Assembly: GCF_900079725.1 (NCBI RefSeq)
Contig: NZ_LT599032.1
Location: 2,502,253 to 2,566,252, forward strand
Reading direction: 5' to 3'
Source of the DNA: an uncultured Dysgonomonas sp.
Lineage (GTDB): Bacteria > Bacteroidota > Bacteroidia > Bacteroidales > Dysgonomonadaceae
Length of the DNA stretch: 64,000 nt
Each line of letters opens with the position of its first letter. The first letter of the stretch is position 1. The translations under genes and the position numbers were made by a program. Below the pieces are notes generated by a model that was not told the DNA's origin, did not search any database, and worked only from the letters and a program-made list of their open reading frames with translations. Below are positions 2,639 to 21,963 of this stretch, piece after piece.

Positions 2639-3841
2639 ATGAAAACAACTACCCAGACCGGAACGGCCTTCACCATCCTTTCGCTTTTGGCAGTATGTCA
2701 CATGCTCAACGATATGCTCCAGTCTATCATTTCAGCGGTATACCCTTTACTGAAAGATTCACTGTTGCTGAATTTTACACAGATAGGACTGATAACATTA
2801 GTATTTCAGCTATCATCATCTTTGTTTCAGCCCGTTGTTGGCCTCATCACTGATAAGAAACCACAGCCCTATTCCCTGCCCATCGGTATGACATTTACCA
2901 TGATAGGAATACTGTCCCTGTCGCTTGCCAACGATTTCATACATGTACTGATTGCCGTATTCCTCACCGGACTCGGCTCTTCTATATTCCATCCCGAAGC
3001 TTCCCGGCTTGCCTATATGGCTTCGGGCGGAAAACACGGGCTGGCGCAATCCCTGTTTCAGGTAGGAGGAAATTTCGGTTCATCTGTAGGCCCTTTACTG
3101 GCATTGTGGATAATAACTCCATACGGACAACGGAATATCGGGTGGCTATCTATCATCGCGCTTGTTTCTATCGGGGTAATGCTTGTTATCAGCAAATGGT
3201 ACAAAGCCAACCTGTACAGGCTGAAACCCACACCTAAAACAGATGGAAGCACTCCGGAAAAAACTTCCGGCTATTCTACCCGGAAAGTAGCCTTTGCCAT
3301 CTCTATACTACTCATACTTATCTTCTCCAAATATGTATATATGGCAAGCCTCAGCAGCTATTATATGTTTTACCTGATAGACAAATTCAGTGTATCGGTC
3401 CATGATGCACAGCTATACCTGTTTGCATTCTTGTTTGCCGTGGCACTGGGTACTATCATAGGAGGGCCTGTAGGCGACCGCATCGGACGTAAATATGTAA
3501 TCTGGGCATCTATCCTCGGCACTGCGCCGTTCGCCCTTATTATGCCGCATGTAGGCCTTATGTGGACATGTATATTAAGTATCTTTATCGGATTGATATT
3601 ATCCTCGGCCTTCTCAGCTATTCTGGTCTATGCGCAGGAACTTGTTCCAGGTAAAGTGGGCCTGATAGGCGGCCTGTTCTTTGGGCTGGCATTCGGTATT
3701 GCGGGAGTAGCGTCTGCCATACTGGGCAAGGTAGCTGACGAAACAAGCATACAGCATGTATATGATATTTGTGCATACCTGCCGTTGATAGGATTAGTCG
3801 CAGCTTTTTTGCCTAATACAAAAAAAACGGAAAAAGCCTAG
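2639..3841 (+). CDS. MFS efflux transporter, fosmidomycin-resistance (Fsr) family
   Basis: Inner-membrane major-facilitator drug/proton antiporter of 400 residues with about 12 hydrophobic segments. The N-terminus (CHMLNDMLQSIISAVYPLL), the motif-A-like VVGLITDKKPQP after TM2, the GLGSSIFHPEASRLA segment and FQVGGNFGSSVGPLLA are characteristic of the Fsr branch. A second motif-A copy (GPVGDRIGRKYV) opens the C-terminal half. Substrate is unknown; family members export fosmidomycin or other small toxic compounds. The gene follows a TetR regulator by 60 bases, the usual regulator/pump arrangement. Length is normal and no key part is missing. Confidence 0.9.
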   Translation: MKTTTQTGTAFTILSLLAVCHMLNDMLQSIISAVYPLLKDSLLLNFTQIGLITLVFQLSSSLFQPVVGLITDKKPQPYSLPIGMTFTMIGILSLSLANDFIHVLIAVFLTGLGSSIFHPEASRLAYMASGGKHGLAQSLFQVGGNFGSSVGPLLALWIITPYGQRNIGWLSIIALVSIGVMLVISKWYKANLYRLKPTPKTDGSTPEKTSGYSTRKVAFAISILLILIFSKYVYMASLSSYYMFYLIDKFSVSVHDAQLYLFAFLFAVALGTIIGGPVGDRIGRKYVIWASILGTAPFALIMPHVGLMWTCILSIFIGLILSSAFSAILVYAQELVPGKVGLIGGLFFGLAFGIAGVASAILGKVADETSIQHVYDICAYLPLIGLVAAFLPNTKKTEKA

Positions 3842-10556: not shown

Positions 10557-11417
10557 TTACTCCACCGGAATATATATTTCCGTTTTCAATTTATCAGGCG
10601 CGGTACTTTCCGGATTATTCACATATTTCTCAAATAAAGGGGCATTCCGTACCTGATATCCACCTTCCGGAATCCATTTCCCGTAAATAGTATCATAAAC
10701 ACTGCCTAACTGGTCGTAAGGTCCCTGATAATGAAATACCGCATACTTCCCTCCCTCTATTTCTTTAACACCTATTTCTCCTTTTGCTACAGCCGGTTTA
10801 TGTATTACAAGGCATATATCTGTCCGTAGTTTATGCGATTCGGTCACTTTAGGATCATCATAATAAAAACAAATATGCTCTATGCCTGCCGAAAACAGTT
10901 TGTTCTCTTTTACAAACTGCCAGAGACGTTTCCATGTACCGGGAAAATCGAGGGAAGAATACTCCCCGAATAGCCGGATATAAATAGCTTGTTTAGCTTC
11001 TACCTCCTGTATTTTCGGAGCTTTGAGATTCAGGTTCTCATTAATTAGTAATGGTTTCATAATAGTGTAACTTTTATTGTTTCTATAATCTGTAGGTGAA
11101 ATATTATAGAACTGCCGGAAAACCTTGGTCAGCGAAGAAGGTGTGGCATATCCTACATTGTAGGCAATATCCTGTACAGGAAGCTCTGTGTACCTCAACA
11201 GCCGGGCTGCAGTCTCGACCCGTATACGTACAACAAAAGCGCCTATCGGTTCACCTACAATAGCTCTGAATATACGATGGAAATGGTATACTGAAAAGTT
11301 GGAAACTTCGGCCAGTTTATTCAGATCCATTTCTTCATCCAGATTGCTACCGATATACTCGATAACGGTATTGATACGTTTGGCATATTCTTCTCTGGTA
11401 ATTGTTTTCTGTTCCAT
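10557..11417 (-). CDS. AraC-family regulator with a GyrI-like effector domain
   Basis: A 286-residue transcription factor. Two helix-turn-helix motifs fill residues 10-110 (MDLNKLAEVSNFSVYHFHRI and the second HTH VQDIAYNVGYATPSSLTKVF with the AraC signature FRQFYNISPTDYR). Residues about 125-286 are a GyrI/BacR-like small-molecule-binding domain (KQAIYIRLFGEYSSLDFPGT, EGGKYAVFHYQGPYDQLGSV). The order N-terminal HTH plus C-terminal GyrI-like is that of SoxS/Rob-type regulators, which answer to cationic drugs or amphipathic compounds. The inducer and target here are unknown; no efflux gene is directly adjacent. The convergent hairpin at 10499-10537 lies past its stop. Confidence 0.9.
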   Translation of the reverse strand: MEQKTITREEYAKRINTVIEYIGSNLDEEMDLNKLAEVSNFSVYHFHRIFRAIVGEPIGAFVVRIRVETAARLLRYTELPVQDIAYNVGYATPSSLTKVFRQFYNISPTDYRNNKSYTIMKPLLINENLNLKAPKIQEVEAKQAIYIRLFGEYSSLDFPGTWKRLWQFVKENKLFSAGIEHICFYYDDPKVTESHKLRTDICLVIHKPAVAKGEIGVKEIEGGKYAVFHYQGPYDQLGSVYDTIYGKWIPEGGYQVRNAPLFEKYVNNPESTAPDKLKTEIYIPVE

Positions 11418-11697
11418 AGTCTATAAATGTTTCGGTACAAAATTATGCACCATTCATTTTATTATCTTTTCCAATCTTGCTAACTTACGGAATGGATATA
11501 TTCTGGTAAATGAGTAATTAGATCACTTAGCAAATATATTTTGTTAGATCATAATTTCCAATATTCCATTTCATTTTCATTATATACAAAGTATTTGTGT
11601 AAAACTCTCTTTATTAATCTTTTTTGTTAAATAGAATTATTTATTTAATTTTAGAACGTCTTAGAACATCCATTAATTTATTAAATCAATTAATATT

Positions 11698-12318
11698 ATG
11701 AGAATTATTAGAAATTCTATTGTGCTGCTTATCGGTCTGATAAGTAGTGTAAGCATGTTCGCACAACTTCCTGTATCCTTTGGTGTAAAAGCCGGAATGA
11801 ATTTATCGGAGATACAAAAAATAGATGACAATGTTAAGGTAGGCTTCAATATTGGTCTAACTGCAGAGCTTGCATTGCCAAGTAGTTTTTACCTGATGTC
11901 GGGTTTGGAGTTTACAACCAAAGGAGCTAAAGGTAAAGAGGTGAATGTCGTACTCCCTGCCGGAAGTAATCCTATGACAAGTAAAATTACATATAATGCT
12001 ATGTACCTTCAGCTACCTATACATGTAGGATATAAACTGGATCTGGTACCCGGTACTAAACTCATATTCCGTGCAGGACCGTATCTGGCTTACGGCGTAG
12101 GAGGAAAAATAAAATGGGACGTAGAAGGTATTGAAGATCAGGATATCTTTAATGATGACAGTAACCGTTTCGATTTTGGAATAGGTGGAGCTGTAGGCGT
12201 CGAATTCTTAAATAAGATAAGCGTTAGCCTGGGTGCTGATCAGGGTTTAACAAAAATATTTAAAGATACCAGTACAAAGAACCGGAGCGCATATATCAGC
12301 GTAGGATATAAATTCTGA
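11698..12318 (+). CDS. Outer-membrane beta-barrel protein (PorT/OmpW-like family)
   Basis: A 206-residue exported barrel. A signal peptide (residues 1-22, ending SMFAQ) is followed by FGVKAGMNLSEI, the opening strand common in Bacteroidetes outer membrane beta-barrel (PorT-family) proteins. Alternating aromatic strands follow, with YLQLPIHVGYKLDL and LIFRAGPYLAYGVGG in the middle, and the last strand ends AYISVGYKF with the terminal Phe required for Bam recognition. Ligand or cargo is unknown. It stands alone: 280 bases of AT-rich sequence upstream, and a bidirectional terminator downstream shared with punA. Confidence 0.85.
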   Translation: MRIIRNSIVLLIGLISSVSMFAQLPVSFGVKAGMNLSEIQKIDDNVKVGFNIGLTAELALPSSFYLMSGLEFTTKGAKGKEVNVVLPAGSNPMTSKITYNAMYLQLPIHVGYKLDLVPGTKLIFRAGPYLAYGVGGKIKWDVEGIEDQDIFNDDSNRFDFGIGGAVGVEFLNKISVSLGADQGLTKIFKDTSTKNRSAYISVGYKF

Positions 12319-12341
12319 TAGAATTCTGTAAACTTATATAA

Positions 12342-12380
12342 AAAATAACAGGGGGTTCAAATTGAACCCCCTGTTATTTT
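12342..12380. terminator. Bidirectional terminator between the barrel gene and punA
   Basis: A perfect long inverted repeat (AATAACAGGGGGTTCAA against TTGAACCCCCTGTTATT) lies between two convergent genes, touching the punA stop codon. Runs of T follow on both strands, stronger on the minus strand. Confidence 0.9.
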
Positions 12381-13196
12381 CTAATTTATCTTCTTTATTA
12401 CTTCCTGCATAATATATGCCATCTTCGGCTGGGCTATTTTAGCAGCTTCCTGCACATCTTCGTGTGTTACCTCCACTATCTTCCCTATCACACCCAGATC
12501 GGTGATTATAGAGAATGCCAGCACCTTCATTTTGGCATGATTGGCTACAATAACCTCCGGTACGGTGGACATACCTACGGCGTCGCCGCCTATAATGCGA
12601 AACCAGTTATATTCGGCCGGGGTTTCGAATGTCGGGCCCTGAGTCCCTACATAAACCCCATGTTGCAGTTTTATGTTGTTTTCTTTGGCTATCTGCATAG
12701 CTAACAAACGAAGTTCCTTGTTGTATGCATCGCTCATATCGGGGAAACGTACGCCGAGTTCTTTATAATTCTTTCCACGCAGCGGATGTTCGGGAAAAGT
12801 ATTGATATGATCGTCGATAAGCATAATATCACCTATGTCGAAGCTGCCGTTCATTCCACCGGCTGCATTGGATACAAAAAGATATTTAATACCCAGTGCC
12901 TGAAATACCCGGATAGGAAATGTTACTTCCTGCATGCTATAGCCTTCGTAATAATGAAAGCGGCCCTGCATGGCTATTACATCTTTACCTCCGAGTTTAC
13001 CAAAAATAAGTTTACCACTGTGCCCTTCTACTGTAGAAACAGGGAAGTTCGGTATGTTTTCGTATGGGATATCTTTTTTGTCACTTATCTCGTGTACCAG
13101 TTCGCCAAGTCCTGTACCCAGTATGATTGCGATATTGGGAATAGTCTGTACTCTACTTCTTATAAAGCCTGCGGTTTCCTGAATTTTCTCTAACAT
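12381..13196 (-). CDS. punA: Purine-nucleoside phosphorylase (trimeric, PNP-I type)
   Basis: Phosphorolyses inosine and guanosine to free base plus ribose 1-phosphate for purine salvage. The 271-residue protein carries the trimeric-PNP features: ILGTGLGEL (phosphate-binding, about 25-33), VEGHSGKL with the catalytic-loop His, GRFHYYEGY, VSNAAGGMN, the base-site GPTFETPAEYNWFR and MSTVPEVIVA (phosphate/ribose contacts) and the late ITDLG. Length fits. The start codon lies 44 bases inside the 3' end of lpxK in another frame, so translation is probably coupled. It is the last gene of the sppA-lpxK-punA set and ends at a strong terminator. Confidence 0.95.
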   Translation of the reverse strand: MLEKIQETAGFIRSRVQTIPNIAIILGTGLGELVHEISDKKDIPYENIPNFPVSTVEGHSGKLIFGKLGGKDVIAMQGRFHYYEGYSMQEVTFPIRVFQALGIKYLFVSNAAGGMNGSFDIGDIMLIDDHINTFPEHPLRGKNYKELGVRFPDMSDAYNKELRLLAMQIAKENNIKLQHGVYVGTQGPTFETPAEYNWFRIIGGDAVGMSTVPEVIVANHAKMKVLAFSIITDLGVIGKIVEVTHEDVQEAAKIAQPKMAYIMQEVIKKIN

Positions 13197-14253
13197 GTTT
13201 ATATATTTTTTCTTTAAAATCGTCCTCTTTATCTAAGAATGTGACTTCGATAGGCAAAAAGTACATATACCTTTTTACATCTTCATCTATATTTTCATTC
13301 AATACAAGGCGTGTAGCGTCTTTTTCTGTCACCAGAATAATCTTATTTTCAGATGGTATCCCTGCAAATTTATTAATAATATACTGGATGTCTTTTGCTT
13401 TGAAACTATAATGATCAGGGTAAGTTATGGTATCTACTTTATCTGTATATTCCTCCAGTTTCTTTAATATCATCTTCGGTGAGGCTATTCCGGTAGCCAG
13501 TAAAATATGCTTATCTTTCAGGATATCTAACGGTTGCTCGACGGCAAAATCCTTAAATACGGGTTGTAATTGTTTATAAGCAAATTGTGTAAAATATAAT
13601 CCCTGATAGGGAAAAGCGTTTATATCGTGCGAAATAATACGGTAGTCGATTGGCTGCATATCACCGGGACATTTAGTTACGATTATCATATTCGCATTTA
13701 CAAGAGCCGATGCAGGCTCCCTCAATCGTCCGGCAGGAAGCATTTCATCTTCATATACAGGACGGTTAAAATCGGATAAGATAATAGTATAAGAAGGTTT
13801 TACATACCTGTGCTGAAAAGCATCATCCAACAAAATCACTTCGGGAGGGTTTTCCAATGCCAGCATTTCTTTAATACCTCTTCTCCTGTTACCATCGACT
13901 GCAACTATAGCATCCGGAAATTTTTGTTTTATCTGAAACGATTCATCACCCAAATCACGGCTGTCAGAATCTTCTGTAGCCAGCACAAAGCCTTTCGATT
14001 TTCGTTTATATCCGCGACTGAGCACTCCTACTCTGTATTTTTGCTGCAACAGGCGTACAAGATATTCGGTATGGGGAGTTTTTCCCGTTCCTCCTACTGT
14101 GACATTGCCTATGCAGATAACAGGAATATCAAATTCTTCGTGTTTGAGTATTCCCCAGTCGAAAAATTTGTTGCGTATAAATACAATCAGTCTGTACAAC
14201 CATGAAAACGGCAGCAACCATTTGTTGATATGTACAGGCTGATTCTTTATCAT
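13153..14253 (-). CDS. lpxK: Tetraacyldisaccharide 4'-kinase LpxK
   Basis: Adds the 4'-phosphate to the lipid A disaccharide on the inner face of the cytoplasmic membrane. The 366-residue protein has an N-terminal membrane-associated helix (LLPFSWLYRLIVFIRN), the Walker A motif GGTGKTP at residues 54-60, VLSRGYKRKSKG, the Walker B-like VILLDDAFQHRYV and the VTEKDATRL segment near residue 310. It overlaps punA by 44 bases and starts 55 bases after sppA. Length is normal. Lipid A synthesis agrees with a Gram-negative envelope. Confidence 0.95.
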   Translation of the reverse strand: MIKNQPVHINKWLLPFSWLYRLIVFIRNKFFDWGILKHEEFDIPVICIGNVTVGGTGKTPHTEYLVRLLQQKYRVGVLSRGYKRKSKGFVLATEDSDSRDLGDESFQIKQKFPDAIVAVDGNRRRGIKEMLALENPPEVILLDDAFQHRYVKPSYTIILSDFNRPVYEDEMLPAGRLREPASALVNANMIIVTKCPGDMQPIDYRIISHDINAFPYQGLYFTQFAYKQLQPVFKDFAVEQPLDILKDKHILLATGIASPKMILKKLEEYTDKVDTITYPDHYSFKAKDIQYIINKFAGIPSENKIILVTEKDATRLVLNENIDEDVKRYMYFLPIEVTFLDKEDDFKEKIYKHVRENSGNRRLYKK

Positions 14254-14259
14254 TTTTTT

Positions 14260-14288
14260 AGCCCCTCCAACCTCCCCAAAGGGAGGCT
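14260..14288. repeat. Short GC-rich hairpin between sppA and lpxK
   Basis: CCTCCC-CAAA-GGGAGG at 14271-14286, extended by AGCC/GGCT-type pairing. It resembles short CCTCC/GGAGG palindromes scattered in Bacteroidetes genomes. There is no T-run in the direction of transcription, so a full terminator is unlikely. Confidence 0.4.
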
Positions 14289-14308
14289 ATAGAGAGAGTA
14301 TATATTTT

Positions 14309-16063
14309 TTACTTAATATCTATATCGTAAGGCATACGTGCCTGGATAAAGTCCTGCTCTTTTATTTCCTTGATTGTTTTGAACAGTTGATAGTCACTAC
14401 CAAGATACTCTTTCATAGCCCGTGTGGTCAGTTCTTCTTTCTGATCGCTAAGGAAGGATTCAAAGAAATCCCTTTTCTTAGGAAAACTGTTTAAAGAATA
14501 ATCTTCGAGGTTTGCCAGTTTTGCTGCTTCTTCAATAGCTTTGTCTATACCTCCCAATTCGTCTACCAAACCTATTTTTACAGCCTGGTTACCTGTCCAT
14601 ACACGTCCCTGTGCAATAGAATCGAGGGAATTTTTAGCAATACCACGACCGTCCGAACAACGAGTAAGGAACAGATCGTATCCGCGCTCTATATAATTTT
14701 GAAGTATAGCCTTTTCATCATCACGCATCGGACGTGTGAGATCGCCAAAATCGGCGTGTTTATTTGTCTTCACATTATCAAATGTCAGACCTACCTTCTT
14801 GGTAAGGCCTTCTACATTCGGGAACATACCGAATATACCGATAGAACCTGTCAATGTATTTGGCTGGGCTATAATTTTGGAAGCATTACATGAGATATAA
14901 TATCCTCCCGAAGCCGCATAATCTCCCATAGATACTACTACAGGTTTCTTCTCTTTCAGGTCGGTAACAGCTTTCCAAATCTGCTCAGAAGCATAAGCGC
15001 TACCTCCGGGAGAATTTACACGGAATACAACAGCTTTTACTTTGTCGTTGTCTTTCAGTTTTTCCAGTTCTTTTACAAAGCGTTTGCTTGTAATACCATC
15101 CGTACCCGAACCATCTGTTATAGAACCTTCAGCATATAATACAGCTATGATATCTTTCGATTTGCTTTTGTTTTCGAACGGTACGGTAGTCATATCCTTC
15201 ACCGAAGCCAGACGCACGTCTTTAGCCTTTTCTACTCCTGTGAGCAATGTTTTCAGATATTCCCTTACTCCCGTTTCATACATCAGTGTATCCACCAGAC
15301 CATCCTGCACACATACTTCAGATTTTTTGAAAAGGGCAAGTGAATCTGTAATTACATTTAATTTTTCTACAGAGATATCTCTCGAAGCCGATATTTCACT
15401 TGTGATGGTCGACCACATATCACCTATATAAGAAGATACCTGCTCACGATTGGCATCACTCATTTTATCAAGCATAAAGGGTTCTACCGCGGATTTGAAT
15501 GTACCTACTTTGAATATCTGCATCTCTATACCTATTTTATCCAGCAATCCTTTGTAAAACATAGGTGAAGCTGAAAGCCCGTGCAAATCGAGATGACCTT
15601 CCGGATTCATTATTAATTTATCAGCTACAGACGAAAGATAGTAACAACCCTGTGTATATACATCACTGTATGCAACAATAAATTTTCCGCTTTCTTTGAA
15701 ATCTACCAACTGATCTCTTATCTCTTTAAGAGAAGCACCGGATGCGGAAAAAGCACCCGCATTTATATATATACCTTTTATATTATCATTTTCCTTTGCC
15801 TTTTTTATAGACGAAACAATATCATCAAGTCCAAGTTGTGGTTCGCTATTTTGATTCAGCATAGCGAGTAAAGGATTTTCTTCTTCTACCCTTTCAGACA
15901 ATATGCCTTCGAGTTTCAATGTCAACACTGTATTATCTTTCAATGTATAACTCTCTTTGGCCGACATTGCTGCCAAAACAATAAAAAATATAAGGAAACA
16001 AATTCCTAATACTATCGAACAGCCTAAAATAGAGGCTAATAAACTTTTAAAAAACTCTTTCAT
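14309..16063 (-). CDS. sppA: Signal peptide peptidase SppA, 67K type
   Basis: Inner-membrane serine/lysine protease that degrades released signal peptides on the periplasmic side. The 584-residue, double-domain form is anchored by one N-terminal membrane helix (about 9-33). The catalytic lysine is Lys190 in FKVGTFKSAVEPF (first domain) and the nucleophile Ser385 in MGDYAASGGYYIS (second domain), the same split arrangement as E. coli SppA. VNSPGGSAYASE and LTGSIGIFG complete the S49 signature. It begins the leftward sppA-lpxK-punA set, and its upstream region is the AT-rich, DnaA-box-like stretch proposed as the origin. Confidence 0.95.
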   Translation of the reverse strand: MKEFFKSLLASILGCSIVLGICFLIFFIVLAAMSAKESYTLKDNTVLTLKLEGILSERVEEENPLLAMLNQNSEPQLGLDDIVSSIKKAKENDNIKGIYINAGAFSASGASLKEIRDQLVDFKESGKFIVAYSDVYTQGCYYLSSVADKLIMNPEGHLDLHGLSASPMFYKGLLDKIGIEMQIFKVGTFKSAVEPFMLDKMSDANREQVSSYIGDMWSTITSEISASRDISVEKLNVITDSLALFKKSEVCVQDGLVDTLMYETGVREYLKTLLTGVEKAKDVRLASVKDMTTVPFENKSKSKDIIAVLYAEGSITDGSGTDGITSKRFVKELEKLKDNDKVKAVVFRVNSPGGSAYASEQIWKAVTDLKEKKPVVVSMGDYAASGGYYISCNASKIIAQPNTLTGSIGIFGMFPNVEGLTKKVGLTFDNVKTNKHADFGDLTRPMRDDEKAILQNYIERGYDLFLTRCSDGRGIAKNSLDSIAQGRVWTGNQAVKIGLVDELGGIDKAIEEAAKLANLEDYSLNSFPKKRDFFESFLSDQKEELTTRAMKEYLGSDYQLFKTIKEIKEQDFIQARMPYDIDIK

Positions 16064-16620
16064 CTCGTAGTTTTTATATTTAAATAAGTAACAAAATTAT
16101 ATATTTATCTGGTAATATGCTATTTAAAATCTATAAATCATTAAAATTTATAATTATTGATTGTATGTTGATAACCTGTTGATAACTGTTGATATATTTT
16201 TTATTTAAAAATCATGGTTTATTGGAACTAATCATCATATATGAAATAAGTCGCAAATAACAATTAAAAATCACATCAATTTATTAGGACACATTTCAAA
16301 GGATTATTAACAGTGATAAACAAAACAAGAACAAATTATTTTTCAACAAATATAGTTATCAACATTGTTTTAATAAAGTTCACAATACGCTATATACAAA
16401 TAATTTGCCTAATTTTATACCGGTTAATAACTCACAATCTTATGCAAACAGATTTTTAATAATGAAATATGCAAGCTTTTTCTAAAAAAACAATGAACAC
16501 AATTAACAGCCTATAATGACCAATATGATTTTTTTTAAAGTTTTAAACAAAAAGAATAATATTAATATAATTTGATAATAACTCCGTAATCCGAAAAATA
16601 TAGAGATACAACAAGAATAT
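16064..16620. other. Putative chromosomal replication origin (oriC)
   Basis: Gene-free, extremely AT-rich 557 bases between divergent sppA and an SGNH hydrolase gene. TGTTGATAA occurs at 16166-16174 and 16177-16185, and TGTTGATAT at 16187-16195, at 11- and 10-base spacing (one helical turn). The inverted form TTATCAACA is at 16356-16364, with TTATTAACA at 16304-16312. TTATCAACA is one base from the classical DnaA box TTATCCACA. G/C strand bias on sampled lines differs on the two sides (see findings), and two parS sites lie 31 kb away. dnaA itself is not here, and no experiment supports the call. Confidence 0.6.
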
Positions 16621-17355
16621 ATGAATAAAGGAAAATTTTTCAGAATTATTTTAGCCTTGTCAATAATATTGAATATTGCGACAGTAGCTTATATCGGTAT
16701 CAACTATTATATAAACAGAAAAAACGGCAATATTTTTAAATTGAATGCTTATGCTTGGGCCAACAGCCAGTTGGAAGACCCCGAACCGGGTGAAAACCGG
16801 GTAGTATTTATAGGTAATTCCATTACTGAAAACTGGGTACACCTGAGATATAAGTTTTTTAAGGACAACAATTATACCTGCCGTGGCATTGGCGGGCAGA
16901 CCAGTCCCCTGCTTTTGCTTCGTTTCCGTCGGGATGTCATAGAACTTAAACCCAACGTAGTGGTTATAAATGCAGGCATAAACGATATAGCCGAGAATAC
17001 GGGTGAATATGATTCTGTATTCACAATGGATAATATAAAATCCATGGCGCAACTGGCACAAATAAACGGGATAAAGGTTATACTGACATCTGTACTGCCT
17101 TCGAGCGGATATGGATGGAAAGGGCATATAAGGAATATTACGCAGAAAATAAAAGACCTGAATGTAGAAATAAAGGCTTATGCCGAAGAAAACGACTATG
17201 GATATGTAGATTACTATACTGCTATGGTGAATGATGAAGACAGAGGAATGAAAGAAGGGTATAGTTTCGATAGCCAACATCCAAGCGAAAAAGGCTATTC
17301 GGTTATGGAACCTCTAATACAGAAAGCTATTAATGATGTATTGAATCAAAAATGA
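16621..17355 (+). CDS. SGNH/GDSL-family hydrolase, membrane-anchored
   Basis: An esterase/lipase-type or carbohydrate-deacetylase enzyme of 244 residues. An N-terminal membrane anchor (about 7-30) is followed by the SGNH blocks: I, VVFIGNSIT with nucleophile Ser67; II, RGIGGQTSPLLLLRF (oxyanion Gly); III, VINAGINDI (Gly-x-Asn-Asp); V, FDSQHPSEKGY with Asp217 and His220. The IGGQTS block places it near the platelet-activating-factor acetylhydrolase/sialate-esterase-like set seen in Bacteroidetes glycan metabolism. The substrate is unknown. A paralogue lies two genes downstream, separated by a small barrel protein; the three probably form a unit with 7 bases between the first two. Confidence 0.9.
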   Translation: MNKGKFFRIILALSIILNIATVAYIGINYYINRKNGNIFKLNAYAWANSQLEDPEPGENRVVFIGNSITENWVHLRYKFFKDNNYTCRGIGGQTSPLLLLRFRRDVIELKPNVVVINAGINDIAENTGEYDSVFTMDNIKSMAQLAQINGIKVILTSVLPSSGYGWKGHIRNITQKIKDLNVEIKAYAEENDYGYVDYYTAMVNDEDRGMKEGYSFDSQHPSEKGYSVMEPLIQKAINDVLNQK

Positions 17356-17362
17356 AAACGAT

Positions 17363-17875
17363 ATGAAAAGAGCATTTTTATTATTTTCCTTACTGGCGAG
17401 TATGACGGTTGCCGGATTTTCTCAACAGTTCGATCCGTCGAAACTGTCCGTCGGAGGTAATTTCAGTTTACAGTTTGGTGACTATACTGTTGTGGGTATT
17501 TCCCCGCAGGTAGGATATGATTTTTCCAAATATCTCACTGCAGGAGCAGGTTTCGGATATACTTATTTTAAAGATAAGCATTATGATTATAAATGGAATA
17601 ACAGTTATCTGAGTTTCGATGTATTCGGACGTTTTTATCCTGTCGAATATCTGGTTATCAGTGTACAACCTGAGATCAGCCGTATGTGGCAGAATATAAA
17701 ATATAATGACGGTATGGAATTCAGTGAAAGTAAATTTGTACCTTCGTTCCTCATTGGTGGAGGTGTGCGCCTTGGCGGTATGATGGCCATGATACAATAC
17801 GATGTGGTGCAGGATAAAAATTCACCTTATGGAGATAATATATTTTATAGTGTGGGATATACATTCAGATTTTAA
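17363..17875 (+). CDS. Small outer-membrane beta-barrel protein
   Basis: A 170-residue exported barrel with signal peptide 1-20 (ending GFSQ). It has about eight amphipathic strands, including LSVGGNFSLQFGDYTVVGIS, VGYDFSKYLTAGAGFGYTYF and a final DNIFYSVGYTFRF ending in Phe. This is the usual eight-stranded OmpX/porin-like family of Bacteroidetes. It starts 7 bases after the SGNH hydrolase gene and lies between the two hydrolase paralogues. A structural or small-molecule-passage role is possible; no specific function is visible. Confidence 0.8.
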   Translation: MKRAFLLFSLLASMTVAGFSQQFDPSKLSVGGNFSLQFGDYTVVGISPQVGYDFSKYLTAGAGFGYTYFKDKHYDYKWNNSYLSFDVFGRFYPVEYLVISVQPEISRMWQNIKYNDGMEFSESKFVPSFLIGGGVRLGGMMAMIQYDVVQDKNSPYGDNIFYSVGYTFRF

Positions 17876-17963
17876 GCTCATATTTAGTAAGTAAAACACC
17901 TAAATATAGATATATCATTAAATCCTTTTAAATCACTTATATATAATAAAACTTAAATTAATC

Positions 17964-18653
17964 ATGAAGAAACTTATTTTAATGGCTTCGTTTTTTTCTC
18001 TGTTCAGCCTGTTTTCTAACGCCCAGAATTTTAATGAATTGATAAATTTGAAAAGGTATGCTAAAGCTAATAGCGAATTAGCTGCACCTGCTAAAGGTGA
18101 AAACAGAGTTGTATTCATAGGTAATTCTATTACCGACGGATGGGCGTCTCAGCGTCCCGATTTTTTCAAATCCAATAATTATGTGGGTAGGGGAATAGGT
18201 GGTCAGACCAGTCCGCAACTTTTATCCCGTTTCCGTCAGGATGTTATTAACCTGAAGCCTGCGGCTGTTGTAATTAATATAGGTACAAATGATGTGGCTG
18301 GAAATACAGGGCCTTACGATGCTGATTTTACACTCGGTAATATAAAATCAATGGCAGAACTGGCGAATGCCAATGGAATAAAGGTTATCCTGTCATCAGT
18401 AACTCCGGCAGGAGAATATCCATGGAGAAAAGAGATTAAGGAAGTACCTCTTAAAATTGCTGCATTGAATGCCGGTATTAAGGAATATGCCTCATCTAAT
18501 GGATTTGCTTATATAGATTACTACACTCTCCTGAAAGATGAAAACAGAGCTATGATCGCCGAATACACTACCGATGGTGTACACCTTACAAAAGAAGGTT
18601 ATGCTGTAATGGAAAAGGCAGCAAAGACTGTGATAGATGAAGTACTGAAATAG
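17964..18653 (+). CDS. SGNH/GDSL-family hydrolase, secreted
   Basis: A 229-residue paralogue of the hydrolase at 16621. It has a cleavable signal peptide (residues 1-21, ending NAQ) instead of a membrane anchor. Catalytic blocks: VVFIGNSITDGW with Ser55, GIGGQTSPQLLSRF, VINIGTNDVAGN, and GVHLTKEGY with Asp204 and His207. The two enzymes share long stretches around every block and the lead-in ANSxLxxPxxGENRVVFIGN, so they came from one duplication. This copy is probably free in the periplasm or exported further, so the pair may act on the same substrate in different places. A terminator follows. Confidence 0.9.
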   Translation: MKKLILMASFFSLFSLFSNAQNFNELINLKRYAKANSELAAPAKGENRVVFIGNSITDGWASQRPDFFKSNNYVGRGIGGQTSPQLLSRFRQDVINLKPAAVVINIGTNDVAGNTGPYDADFTLGNIKSMAELANANGIKVILSSVTPAGEYPWRKEIKEVPLKIAALNAGIKEYASSNGFAYIDYYTLLKDENRAMIAEYTTDGVHLTKEGYAVMEKAAKTVIDEVLK

Positions 18654-18674
18654 TTTGGATATATAATATGAATG

Positions 18675-18708
18675 AGCCTTTTAATTATAAGATTAAGAGG
18701 CTTTTTTA
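18675..18708 (+). terminator. Rho-independent terminator after the SGNH hydrolase
   Basis: AGCCTTTTAAT pairs with ATTAAGAGGCT (one wobble), followed by TTTTTTA, 21 bases past the stop codon. Confidence 0.8.
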
Positions 18709-18759
18709 TGTAATAAAGTTTAAGATTAACAATATTAAAAGCGATAAATAAAAAAATAG

Positions 18760-18767
18760 TAACTTTG
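18760..18767 (+). promoter_or_regulatory. -7 promoter box for ychF
   Basis: TAACTTTG, exact TAnnTTTG, 26 bases before the ychF start codon and after the terminator of the previous unit. Confidence 0.6.
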
Positions 18768-18793
18768 TACCCAAAATAATTTAAAACTGAATA

Positions 18794-19897
18794 ATGGCAT
18801 TACAATGTGGTATAGTAGGCCTTCCGAATGTAGGAAAATCTACTCTTTTCAATTGCTTGTCGAATGCGAAGGCACAATCGGCAAATTTTCCGTTCTGTAC
18901 TATCGAACCGAATGTAGGTGTTATTACCGTACCTGATGAAAGGTTGAACAAACTTTCGGAACTGGTAAAACCTAACCGTATAGTGCCTACTACTGTCGAA
19001 ATAGTGGATATAGCAGGTCTTGTAAAAGGTGCGAGCAAAGGAGAAGGATTAGGGAATAAGTTCCTTGCCAATATCCGCGAAACAGATGCCATATTGCATG
19101 TTCTTCGTTGCTTCGATGATGATAATATTACACATGTAGATGGTAGTGTAAATCCTGTTCGTGATAAGGAGATTATAGATATAGAGTTGCAATTAAAGGA
19201 CTTGGAAACTATCCAATCCCGTATACAAAAAGTAGAAAAGCAAGCTAAAACAGGAGGTGACAAGGATGCTAAACGTGCTTATGATATCCTATTACAGTTT
19301 AAAGAAGCCTTGGAACAAGGCAAATCTGCCCGCACAGTAAAATTCGATAACAAAGAAGATGAAAAAATAGCCCGGGAAGTTTATTTGCTTACCTACAAGC
19401 CTGTACTCTATGTATGTAATGTAGACGAAGCCAGTGCTGTATCGGGTAATAAATATGTGGAGCAAGTACGTGAATCGGTGAAAGACGAAGATGCTGAAAT
19501 ACTGATTGTAGCTGCAAAGATAGAATCGGAAATAGCTGAATTTGAATCATATGAAGAGCGTGAAATGTTCCTTTCCGAAATAGGGTTGCAAGAATCCGGA
19601 GTGGCACGCCTTATTAAGTCGGCTTATAAATTATTAGGCTTACAGACATATTTCACAGCCGGAGTTCAGGAAGTACGTGCATGGACATTTACAGCAGGAT
19701 GGAAAGCTCCTCAATGTGCAGGCGTAATACATACCGATTTTGAAAAAGGATTTATCCGTGCAGAGGTAATTAAGTATAACGATTTTATTACTCTGGGTTC
19801 CGAAGCTGCAGTAAAAGAAGCCGGAAAGATGAATGTGGAAGGTAAAGAATACATCGTTCAGGACGGAGATATAATGCATTTCCGATTTAATGTGTAA
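18794..19897 (+). CDS. ychF: Redox-regulated ATPase YchF (Obg-family OLA1 homologue)
   Basis: A universally conserved ribosome-associated P-loop protein of 367 residues that hydrolyses ATP rather than GTP. It begins ALQCGIVGLPNVGKSTLFNC with the P-loop GLPNVGKS at 8-15; G3 is DIAGLVKGASKGEGLGNKFL; the G4 position reads NVDE instead of NKxD, the change that gives ATP preference. The coiled coil lies at about 130-200, and the C-terminal TGS domain contains FFTAGVQEVRAWT and YIVQDGDIMHFRFNV. Length is standard. A downstream glycosyltransferase gene begins 17 bases after its stop. Confidence 0.97.
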   Translation: MALQCGIVGLPNVGKSTLFNCLSNAKAQSANFPFCTIEPNVGVITVPDERLNKLSELVKPNRIVPTTVEIVDIAGLVKGASKGEGLGNKFLANIRETDAILHVLRCFDDDNITHVDGSVNPVRDKEIIDIELQLKDLETIQSRIQKVEKQAKTGGDKDAKRAYDILLQFKEALEQGKSARTVKFDNKEDEKIAREVYLLTYKPVLYVCNVDEASAVSGNKYVEQVRESVKDEDAEILIVAAKIESEIAEFESYEEREMFLSEIGLQESGVARLIKSAYKLLGLQTYFTAGVQEVRAWTFTAGWKAPQCAGVIHTDFEKGFIRAEVIKYNDFITLGSEAAVKEAGKMNVEGKEYIVQDGDIMHFRFNV

Positions 19898-19914
19898 AAG
19901 ATAACCTTAAGGTT

Positions 19915-20736
19915 ATGATAATAAACTATGATTCTCCAGGTCAGTTATGCAACAGAATATGGTCATTGTTACCCTCTATTGCTTACGGGCTCGAATATAA
20001 AGAGAAAGTCCTTGCGATAAATCTCGATAAGTATTCGGTAGACTTTGAGAATCTGAATAGTAATAAATATATCCGGTTTGCTTCCCGGAAACTTGTCCAA
20101 AGATTCCTTTTATCTATGAAAGCGAGAGGATATATACAGAACGGAAAGCCTAATATTTTTTCGAAGCTGTTTAAGCTCAATCTGATAGAAGGTTGGTCGA
20201 ATCGTTTGGGCAATGAACAATTAGTAATAAGACATTCCGATGAAATAAGGAAGATATTCACATTCAGGAGTGAAGTGACAGATACGGTAGACACTGTATT
20301 TTCAAAATTCAATGATACTATTATCATTGGTGTGCATATTCGCAGGGGCGATTATGCTGAATGGAATAATGGCATTTATTATTATACTGATGCAGAATAT
20401 CTTCATGTAATGAAGAGCATAGAGAAGCAATTTGAAGATAAGGGAAAGAATATAAAATTCCTGTTATGCTCGAATGAAAAAATTGATCTTCAGTATTTCA
20501 AAGAATTGGATTGCTTTATAATACCAGATTCGTCAGGTCCTAAAGATTTGTATGCTTTGTCGAAGTGTTTATATATAACAGGCCCGCCGAGTTCATATTC
20601 GCAGTGGGCTTCCTATTTAGGAAAGAAGCCTCTCAGGCTGATACTAAAAGCTAATGAAAACGTCTTATTATCCGAGTTTTCGCAGATTATAGCATTGAAT
20701 AAATTAGAAAACGGAGACGTTATTAATATAGATTAA
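19915..20736 (+). CDS. Glycosyltransferase family 11-like protein (alpha-1,2-fucosyltransferase fold)
   Basis: A 273-residue cytoplasmic glycosyltransferase candidate. The start NYDSPGQLCNRIWSLLPSIA resembles the GDP-sugar-binding lead of fucosyltransferase-fold enzymes (cf. GGLGNQ), and residues 139-151 contain GVHIRRGDYAEWN, the HxRRGDY motif that binds GDP-fucose in GT11 and NodZ-type enzymes. The later FLLCSNEKIDLQYFKEL and TGPPSSYSQWASYLG (the conserved SSFSxWA-type segment) fit the family. The sugar donor is inferred from the fold only. It is close behind ychF, away from any capsule locus, so its acceptor cannot be guessed. Confidence 0.75.
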   Translation: MIINYDSPGQLCNRIWSLLPSIAYGLEYKEKVLAINLDKYSVDFENLNSNKYIRFASRKLVQRFLLSMKARGYIQNGKPNIFSKLFKLNLIEGWSNRLGNEQLVIRHSDEIRKIFTFRSEVTDTVDTVFSKFNDTIIIGVHIRRGDYAEWNNGIYYYTDAEYLHVMKSIEKQFEDKGKNIKFLLCSNEKIDLQYFKELDCFIIPDSSGPKDLYALSKCLYITGPPSSYSQWASYLGKKPLRLILKANENVLLSEFSQIIALNKLENGDVINID

Positions 20737-20760
20737 ATAAACCTTAAAATAGCACATAAT

Positions 20761-21195
20761 ATGATTAGTCCAGCAGACAAAAAAGATTACCCGGTGCTGA
20801 TAGCTGTATGGGAAAGTGCTGTAAAAGCTACTCATGATTTTCTGTCAGACGAAGATTTTGAATTTTATAAAAAACATATACCCATCTATTTTGAGCATGT
20901 GTCGTTATATAAATATAAAGATGACAAGGGTATTGTTAAAGCATTTCTTGGAGTGGCGGACAATAGCATCGAAATGTTATTTGTAGATAATGAAAGCCGC
21001 GGATCAGGTATAGGCAAGATATTACTGGACTATGCCGTAAATAAGCTGAATGCCAGAAATGTAGATGTAAATGAACAGAATAAGCAGGCCTTAGATTTCT
21101 ATTATCATTTTGGTTTTAAAGAAGTAAGCCGCGACGAATATGATGGCGAAGGAAAAGGTTATCCTATCTTGCATTTAGTTAAGCCGGAAGAATAA
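20761..21195 (+). CDS. GNAT-family N-acetyltransferase
   Basis: A 144-residue acetyl-CoA-dependent acetyltransferase. The N-terminal helix pair (KDYPVLIAVWESAVKATHDF) is followed by beta-strands ending EMLFVDNESRGSGIGKILLD, where RGSGIGK is the pyrophosphate-binding Q/RxxGxG/A motif. The C-terminal NEQNKQALDFYYHFGF segment is the GNAT motif B. The THDFLSDEDF element is typical of the YjaB-like branch. The acceptor amine is unknown. It starts 24 bases after the glycosyltransferase gene and may be co-transcribed with it. Confidence 0.85.
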   Translation: MISPADKKDYPVLIAVWESAVKATHDFLSDEDFEFYKKHIPIYFEHVSLYKYKDDKGIVKAFLGVADNSIEMLFVDNESRGSGIGKILLDYAVNKLNARNVDVNEQNKQALDFYYHFGFKEVSRDEYDGEGKGYPILHLVKPEE

Positions 21196-21309
21196 TAAAG
21201 AGAAAAAATTAGTTTACTTTGTACATCATTTGTTTACTTATAAATGGATGTTGCATATATAAAAAATAATAAAAAGGTCTGGGACCTTAATGTTTTAAAT
21301 ACCTGAGAT

Positions 21310-21963
21310 ATGGCTCAAAAAAATAAAATCACTACGGTATTGTTCGGTTTAGATGGGGTTGTTGTAGACACAGAACATGATTATGACAAGTTTTGGAGTA
21401 AAATAGCACAAGACAATGAACTGAAAATAAATAACTTTCCTGATATAATAAAAGGAATGACCCTAAATTCGATTATAGAGCTTTATTTTGCTATCTCCAG
21501 CCCCGAAGAAAAACAGGCTATAAGACAGGCATGCTCTGATATGGAACAATCTATCGATTATAAAAAGATAGTTATTCCTGGTGTACTCGATTTTATTCAA
21601 TATATCAAAAAAGAAGGTTATAAGGTAGGTTTGGTAACCAGTTCCCCTGCCAGCAAAGTAAAAGTTGCACTTGCTCAGTTGTCATTAGAGGATGCGTTTG
21701 ATACGGTGATTACATCCGATAGCATAAAGAAAGGTAAACCAGATCCTATGGGATATGTTTTAGCAAAGAACAACTTAGGTGTTTTGTCTTCCGAATGTGC
21801 TGTATTTGAAGATTCTTTTACAGGTATTAAAGCTGCTACATATGCATTTATGCGTGTGATAGGTATTTCCACCACATTATCGGCCGATTATCTGAAAGAT
21901 TATACTTATGCCGTTGTATCTGACTTTTCGGATACAGATAAATTGAAAACACTTTTGGGATAA
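21310..21963 (+). CDS. HAD-superfamily protein (beta-phosphoglucomutase-like) lacking the nucleophilic Asp
   Basis: A 217-residue protein of the HAD subfamily I with an alpha-helical cap (about 20-85). Motif I, normally F-D-x-D-G, reads LFGLDGVVVDTE here: Gly13 replaces the Asp that forms the phospho-aspartate, while Asp15 is kept. The codon is GGT, one transition from GAT. Motif II (LVTSSPASK), motif III (KKGKPDPMGY) and motif IV (VFEDSFTGIKAA) are intact. With no nucleophile the usual phosphatase or mutase chemistry should fail, unless a sequencing error explains the base. The protein could retain ligand binding. It is followed by a strong terminator. Confidence 0.85.
   Translation: MAQKNKITTVLFGLDGVVVDTEHDYDKFWSKIAQDNELKINNFPDIIKGMTLNSIIELYFAISSPEEKQAIRQACSDMEQSIDYKKIVIPGVLDFIQYIKKEGYKVGLVTSSPASKVKVALAQLSLEDAFDTVITSDSIKKGKPDPMGYVLAKNNLGVLSSECAVFEDSFTGIKAATYAFMRVIGISTTLSADYLKDYTYAVVSDFSDTDKLKTLLG

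Follow-up and report, generated by a model that had tools for sequence, protein, structure and literature searches.

A probable chromosomal replication origin in the gap between sppA and an SGNH hydrolase gene of Dysgonomonas

Does the gene-free gap between sppA and a GDSL/SGNH hydrolase gene hold the replication origin of a Dysgonomonas chromosome whose one full-length dnaA gene, coding for a canonical domain IV, lies 1.1 Mb away (1,420 kb, minus strand)? The window considered here, i.e. the whole stretch of 64,000 nucleotides that was analysed, comprises bases 2,502,253-2,566,252 of a single 5,219,467-base contig, and the gap occupies its positions 16064-16620 (contig 2,518,316-2,518,872; 557 bases; no strand assigned). 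The original prediction had named this gap as a probable replication origin, and it is supported by a corrected skew switch, tandem boxes that are unique in the genome, the orientation of the 16S genes, conservation in relatives and the behaviour of three other complete genomes. Taking these sequence comparisons together, we put the probability that the gap is the chromosomal oriC at roughly 95%.

Anatomy of the gap and its boxes

The description of the gap as gene-free, AT-rich and divergently flanked was borne out in each part: it lacks any gene of annotated size, has an AT content of 79.0% against 61.1% for the whole window, and lies between sppA on the minus strand (14309-16063; Peptidase_S49) and the GDSL/SGNH hydrolase gene on the plus strand (16621-17355). 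A second GDSL/SGNH hydrolase gene (17964-18653) is also close to the gap, and the two such genes are separated by a small outer-membrane-barrel-like gene (17363-17875), whose Pfam score is below the cut-off. No terminators were found, and an Rfam search gave a single match, sub-threshold and outside the gap. When 100-bp windows at least 150 bp apart were ranked by stability across the 64 kb, the least stable of all was found to start at 16074, left of the boxes, and the fourth least stable at 16522-16621 (no strand assigned), the candidate unwinding region. Two of the four least stable windows hence flank the box cluster, one at each end, in the manner of the AT-rich unwinding DNA of an origin.

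The 9-mers from which the prediction had started are all in place: TGTTGATAA at 16166 and 16177, TGTTGATAT at 16187, TTATCAACA at 16356 and TTATTAACA at 16304. Counting both strands, the gap contains three exact copies of TGTTGATAA (0.024 expected) and six sites that differ from it by no more than one base (0.65 expected), with none of 2000 dinucleotide shuffles of the gap reaching either count. Over the whole 64 kb window the word TGTTGATAW shows a mild enrichment (5 against 2.3 expected), so the weight lies on the clustering. The gap has no exact copy of the E. coli box, TTATCCACA, which occurs elsewhere in the window as four single exact copies, at 3105, 37208, 47531 and 53060. A tandem pattern of two box words 0-5 bases apart, TGTTGATAN{0,5}TGTTGATA, has its sole occurrence in the 5,219,467-base genome in the gap. 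As a profile of the gap (R1, below) likewise matches once in the genome, a check for a rival box cluster elsewhere came back empty.

The conserved element spans 16164-16531 on the plus strand (positions 4-371 of R1). In an alignment of 28 sequences (A4), every column of which was scanned on both strands for TGTTNATAA, the ten top places are 16166+, 16177+, 16304-, 16340-, 16356-, 16368+, 16422+, 16454+, 16491- and 16500-, with a mean match of 6.07-7.64 of 8 against a median of 2.68 over all places; the box sites shade into an eleventh place, 16514- (5.93 of 8), and the cut at ten is our own choice. Their pooled consensus is TGTT[G/A]ATAA, i.e. TTAT[C/T]AACA, and the layout of about ten such sites is fixed across the aligned genomes. 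The gap thus presents a cluster of DnaA-box-like words both by its beyond-chance 9-mers in 557 bases and by its ten conserved places.

From left to right, the plus-strand box 1 (TGTTGATAA, 16166-16174; TGTTNATAA matched at at least 7 of 8 positions in 25 of the 28 aligned sequences), box 2 (TGTTGATAA, 16177-16185; 15 of 28) and the lineage-specific box 3 (TGTTGATAT, 16187-16195; 12 of 28) are followed on the minus strand by box 4 (TGTTAATAA, 16304-16312; 24 of 28), box 5 (TGTTGAAAA, 16340-16348; 21 of 28) and box 6 (TGTTGATAA, 16356-16364; 26 of 28), the last being the best conserved site. The plus-strand boxes 7 (TTTTAATAA in the window, 16368-16376) and 8 (GGTTAATAA in the window, 16422-16430) read TGTTGATAA in four and eight of the 28 aligned sequences, respectively, and box 9 (TTTTAATAA, 16454-16462, plus strand) is conserved in position with a weak word. 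The right end is formed by a tandem pair on the minus strand: box 10 (TGTTCATTG in the window, 6 of 8 positions, 16491-16499), which reads TGTTGATAA in two of the 28, and box 11 (TGTTAATTG in the window, 6 of 8 positions, 16500-16508). Between boxes 3 and 4 lies a conserved block, CATATATGAAATAAGTCGCAAATAACAATTAAAAATCACA (16236-16275, plus strand); these 40 bases match no box, can be recognised by eye in 14 of 16 aligned genus-mates, L106 and L107 being the exceptions, and are not kept outside the genus. The block is perhaps a site for another protein.

The stretch adjoining the tandem pair (16510-16533, plus strand) was examined for a basal unwinding system, scored as at least three in-phase DnaA-trios beside the box pair. 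In the window it gives a run of 2, which is at chance level (shuffled mean 2.26), and runs of at least 3 occur in 4 of 14 sequences of the window's genus against 11 of 13 from other genera, L135 being left out of the count because the box pattern used did not match it. In those 11 sequences a T recurs every third base after the right-end tandem pair, in runs of 3 to 7. A DnaA-trio-like right end is evident in the relatives and not in the window.

We considered whether the change of the box from TTATCCACA to TTATCAACA might be due to a change in the recognition helix of DnaA, taking the contact residues from the accessible portion of a published account (PMC5043019). The helix motif reads KNHA or RNHA in seven Dysgonomonadaceae, RDHT in E. 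coli and KDHA in two Bacteroides (4 of 15 DnaA loci gave none in our script), and this explanation was rejected as the two Bacteroides with KDHA have the same box type. The window's chromosome also encodes six ORFs of 249 aa with weak Bac_DnaA matches, five of them equal in score (at 1136714, 1488309, 1527781, 2448971, 3664612 and 4414586), which appear to be IstB-type transposon ATPases, i.e. repeated insertion sequences.

Strand composition around the gap and in other genomes

The gap had further been said to separate regions of opposite GC skew regardless of gene direction. The five hand counts of G and C on 60-base lines behind this statement are all exact; the sign change itself does not hold on raw counts, with G exceeding C in 396 of 789 such lines right of the gap against 92 of 267 left of it. 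Within the window, raw skew mostly reflects the direction of the genes, and between about 22 and 36 kb it returns to negative values. Across the chromosome, the raw cumulative GC skew (40 stretches and the window) reaches a broad minimum some 340 kb left of the gap, in the stretch at 2.18 Mb, and was therefore rejected as a sole locator. Gene-strand bias was also rejected as a locator: its best axis lies elsewhere, and 48% of the coding length is leading with the gap as origin.

A compositional switch emerges after correction for gene strand. For this, third-codon GC skew was computed with each gene classed as leading or lagging under every candidate origin, the data being 1145 ORFs in 1,640,957 of 5,219,467 bases (31% of the chromosome), sampled more densely round the candidate (16 of the 20 stretches of one sampling set lie at 2,195-2,690 kb). 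On a 20-kb whole-genome grid, with the terminus constrained to lie 30-70% of the way round, the best origin is at 2,520,000 (score 454.8). A 1-kb grid places it at 2,518-2,520 kb, i.e. inside the gap or no more than about 1.2 kb from it, and a gene bootstrap (200 rounds, terminus fixed) at 2,515-2,520 kb. Shuffling genes within strands gave a maximal score of 18.3 in 100 trials against 439.2 observed, though these scores are inflated as bases were treated as independent, making the bootstrap the fairer guide. The best fitted terminus, at 5.16 Mb, renders the two arms about equal, and positions from 4.8 Mb to 0.06 Mb score nearly equally. Thus, of the skew check that had been proposed for the gap, the strand-corrected form yields a switch at 2,518-2,520 kb, whereas raw cumulative skew does not place the origin; the switch in strand composition that marks an oriC is seen in the corrected skew and not in raw skew alone. 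Further, each of the four 16S genes is directed away from the gap, with those at 0.314 and 1.916 Mb on the minus strand and those at 3.277 and 4.261 Mb on the plus strand.

In all of three other complete genomes the element lies at the skew switch or at most 10 kb away. All four complete genomes were sampled more densely round the candidate, and the runs in the other genomes, being centred on the element, test it more than they constitute a blind search. For two genomes of other genera, G042 and G004, 20 stretches each were used, 8 of them round the element, with an origin grid over the whole genome. In G042 the best origin is at 972-974 kb and the element at 971.9-972.3 kb, with a low score (47.2) and a bootstrap range of 967-1,032 kb. 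In G004 the best origin is 4-10 kb left of the element, which is 4.2 units below the best score; here the bootstrap range is 1,643-1,653 kb and the element is at 1,652.5-1,652.8 kb. In Bacteroides fragilis Q1F2 (twelve 6-kb stretches, 6 round the element) the optimum of 4,490-4,495 kb contains the element (4,493 kb), and dnaA is at 3,645 kb. The coincidence of the element with the composition switch, to within 10 kb, is thus common to four complete genomes.

The skew resolves position to a few kb, and the best position in G004 is 4-10 kb left of the element; both would be accommodated if the true origin were a few kb off and the gap a DnaA-titrating or regulatory box cluster, comparable to datA and DARS of E. 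coli. We consider this very unlikely: in the window's genome (G000), G042 and B. fragilis the element falls within the best skew interval or borders on it, the tandem pattern has no second copy in the genome, and the 49 genomes matched by R1 have a single match each.

Conservation of the element and exchange of its neighbours

sppA or a relative of it is present in 60 of 61 genomes of the family, and 30 loci were taken for comparison, the best sppA relatives (77-87% identical) being those of genus-mates. All 16 genus loci with enough upstream DNA, the window included, carry the box series at nearly fixed spacings; box words are degenerate in some of them, and to the left of the boxes conservation is partial. 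One more genus locus (L095) ends at a contig edge. No box series was found in 13 sppA loci of other genera (L118 among them having only 315 bases), which contain single words only, one of them exact (L111).

R1, a sequence-only profile built from the 16 genus gaps, matches 49 of the 61 family genomes exactly once each, and these cover 10 of 12 genera. The matches are mostly full length, with shorter ones in G043 (contig edge) and G052 (part) and a weak one in G060. The element is thus one per chromosome and conserved in relatives, as an oriC would be. A second profile, R2, built from 28 sequences, recovered it in all seven R1 misses that were re-tested (cut at a contig edge in G013), bringing the total to 56 of 61; under R2, G017, G027, G003 and G002 each have an additional partial match at chance level. 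The R1 search gave no match in the remaining five (G026, G029, G033, G054 and G059), of which G029 belongs to the window's own genus. R2 also detects the element in three of three Bacteroides (E 6e-19 to 1e-21), and 8 of 12 further named Bacteroidales possess it. Across 14 further genomes, E was at most 1.1e-8 in seven (Phocaeicola, Mediterranea, Muribaculaceae, Marinilabiliaceae, a Dysgonomonadaceae MAG and two Bacteroidales MAGs), one Prevotella gave a weak match (E 5.7e-5), and six gave chance-level matches or none. The four of the 12 Bacteroidales without a convincing match, namely a Paludibacteraceae MAG and MAG 45-6 (none) and Prevotella UBA4330 and Prevotellaceae SUG1800 (chance level), may reflect MAG gaps, true losses or the reach of the model. 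Pedobacter, Sphingobacterium and a Cyclobacteriaceae MAG yielded chance-level partial matches only, and one Flavobacteriales MAG no match.

The neighbours show a different pattern. In a survey of 47 element loci with flanks of about 1.5 kb or less, sppA is the left-hand neighbour in each of the 16 loci from the window's genus, with an SGNH hydrolase on the right in 10 of these; outside the genus nadA is directly right of the element in 23 of 31 loci, and 8 of 31 have neither sppA nor nadA. The weak Prevotella match also adjoins nadA, which supports it as a true orthologue. The nadA gene of the window's genome (at 387 kb) is 2.13 Mb away from the gap, and that of G004 is 192 kb away from the element. 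With nadA as the neighbour outside the genus and sppA inside it, the module persists while its neighbours change. In 23 of the 47 loci (L147, L275, L285, L145 and others) the element ends about 30-100 bases before nadA, so that the nadA promoter may share sequence with the opening region. We consider it likely that the Bacteroidales share an ancestral origin module of about 370 bases, with about ten TTAT[C/T]AACA boxes in a fixed layout and an ancestral place upstream of nadA, and that in the Dysgonomonas lineage the nadA neighbour was lost and sppA gained with the module still acting as origin. Its identity would accordingly reside in the module itself and not in its neighbours or in dnaA.

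The same survey bears on the proposal that the boxes are an operator or promoter region of sppA or the SGNH hydrolase gene, i.e. repeats bound by a transcription factor. The gap does lie between divergent genes, sppA adjoins it in 16 of 16 genus loci and promoter-like matches exist in it; however, these are at chance level (10 found, 8.0 expected), the layout is kept in the 31 of 47 loci without sppA in their flanks of about 1.5 kb, 23 of which have nadA instead, as well as in L098, where other ORFs separate the element from sppA, and the element tracks the skew switch rather than a gene. Such a role is hence highly improbable. The short direct repeats of the gap, 10-11 bases apart, are reminiscent of iterons and might suggest that an integrated plasmid or conjugative element, and not the chromosome, has its origin here. 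This reading can practically be dismissed, given that 56 of 61 family genomes each carry the element as one strong match, that its layout recurs in Bacteroides, that in four complete genomes it coincides with the skew switch or lies close to it, and that it has no adjacent Rep gene of the kind that accompanies plasmid iterons, Pfam showing no replication-initiator (Rep) or integrase family among the 12 neighbouring proteins (10557-21963).

Proposed working and comparison with known origins

If the gap is the chromosomal origin, its anatomy and established knowledge of origins suggest how it might work. DnaA, encoded 1.1 Mb away, would bind the approximately ten TTAT[C/T]AACA boxes, which are arranged, from left to right, as a direct cluster, a central inverted set, a direct set past the centre and, at the right end, a tandem inverted pair. 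From this right-end pair it would oligomerise into the adjacent AT-rich DNA (about 16510-16620) and open it, whereupon the helicase would be loaded at the opened stretch and replication would proceed bidirectionally, with termination predicted between about 4.8 Mb and the contig start. We know of no Bacteroidales origin sequence that has been dissected experimentally, and the gap offers a compact target for footprinting and mini-chromosome tests. A profile that locates the origin by sequence would also give skew plots, and growth-rate estimates made from coverage, a fixed reference point in many Bacteroidales, including draft genomes.

E. coli oriC shares with the gap the presence of several 9-base boxes, in either orientation, next to an AT-rich unwinding region; it differs in its neighbours and layout, and the best boxes of the gap are one base off TTATCCACA. 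The BUS of Bacillus subtilis, as set out in the available part of its description (PMC8287927), resembles several Dysgonomonadaceae genera in its tandem boxes, short spacer, base fixed at every third position and AT-rich DNA. The window is unlike it in having trios at chance level, many more boxes on both strands and no adjacent dnaA. A literature search for DnaA-trio and oriC in Bacteroid- organisms found no papers.

Within the Bacteroidetes, the origin of Blattabacterium Bge was likewise placed by GC skew, but this organism, unlike Dysgonomonas, is an endosymbiont without dnaA and DnaA boxes, going by the accessible text (PMC2768785). In a paper on Porphyromonas gingivalis, in the portion available, oriC is set in the figures at the first base of dnaA (PMC5771137). 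An oriC away from dnaA is described as common in Bacteroidetes, with citation of DoriC, in the available sections of the Prevotella intermedia OMA14 report (PMC4755523), making Bacteroidetes origins hard to place by annotation. According to the same sections, the predicted oriC of P. intermedia OMA14 is similar to the gap in its GC-skew transition, several DnaA boxes and distance from dnaA; it was obtained using Ori-Finder with the E. coli box and one mismatch (PMC4755523), whereas the TTAT[C/T]AACA word and the layout of the gap come from a comparison of many genomes. Among the literature matches listed, we recognised none on a Bacteroidales-wide origin module, an oriC-nadA link or an exchange of nadA for sppA. 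Thus, while it was already known that oriC is commonly away from dnaA, what appears to be new here is the proposed module common to Bacteroidales and the exchange of nadA for sppA beside it.
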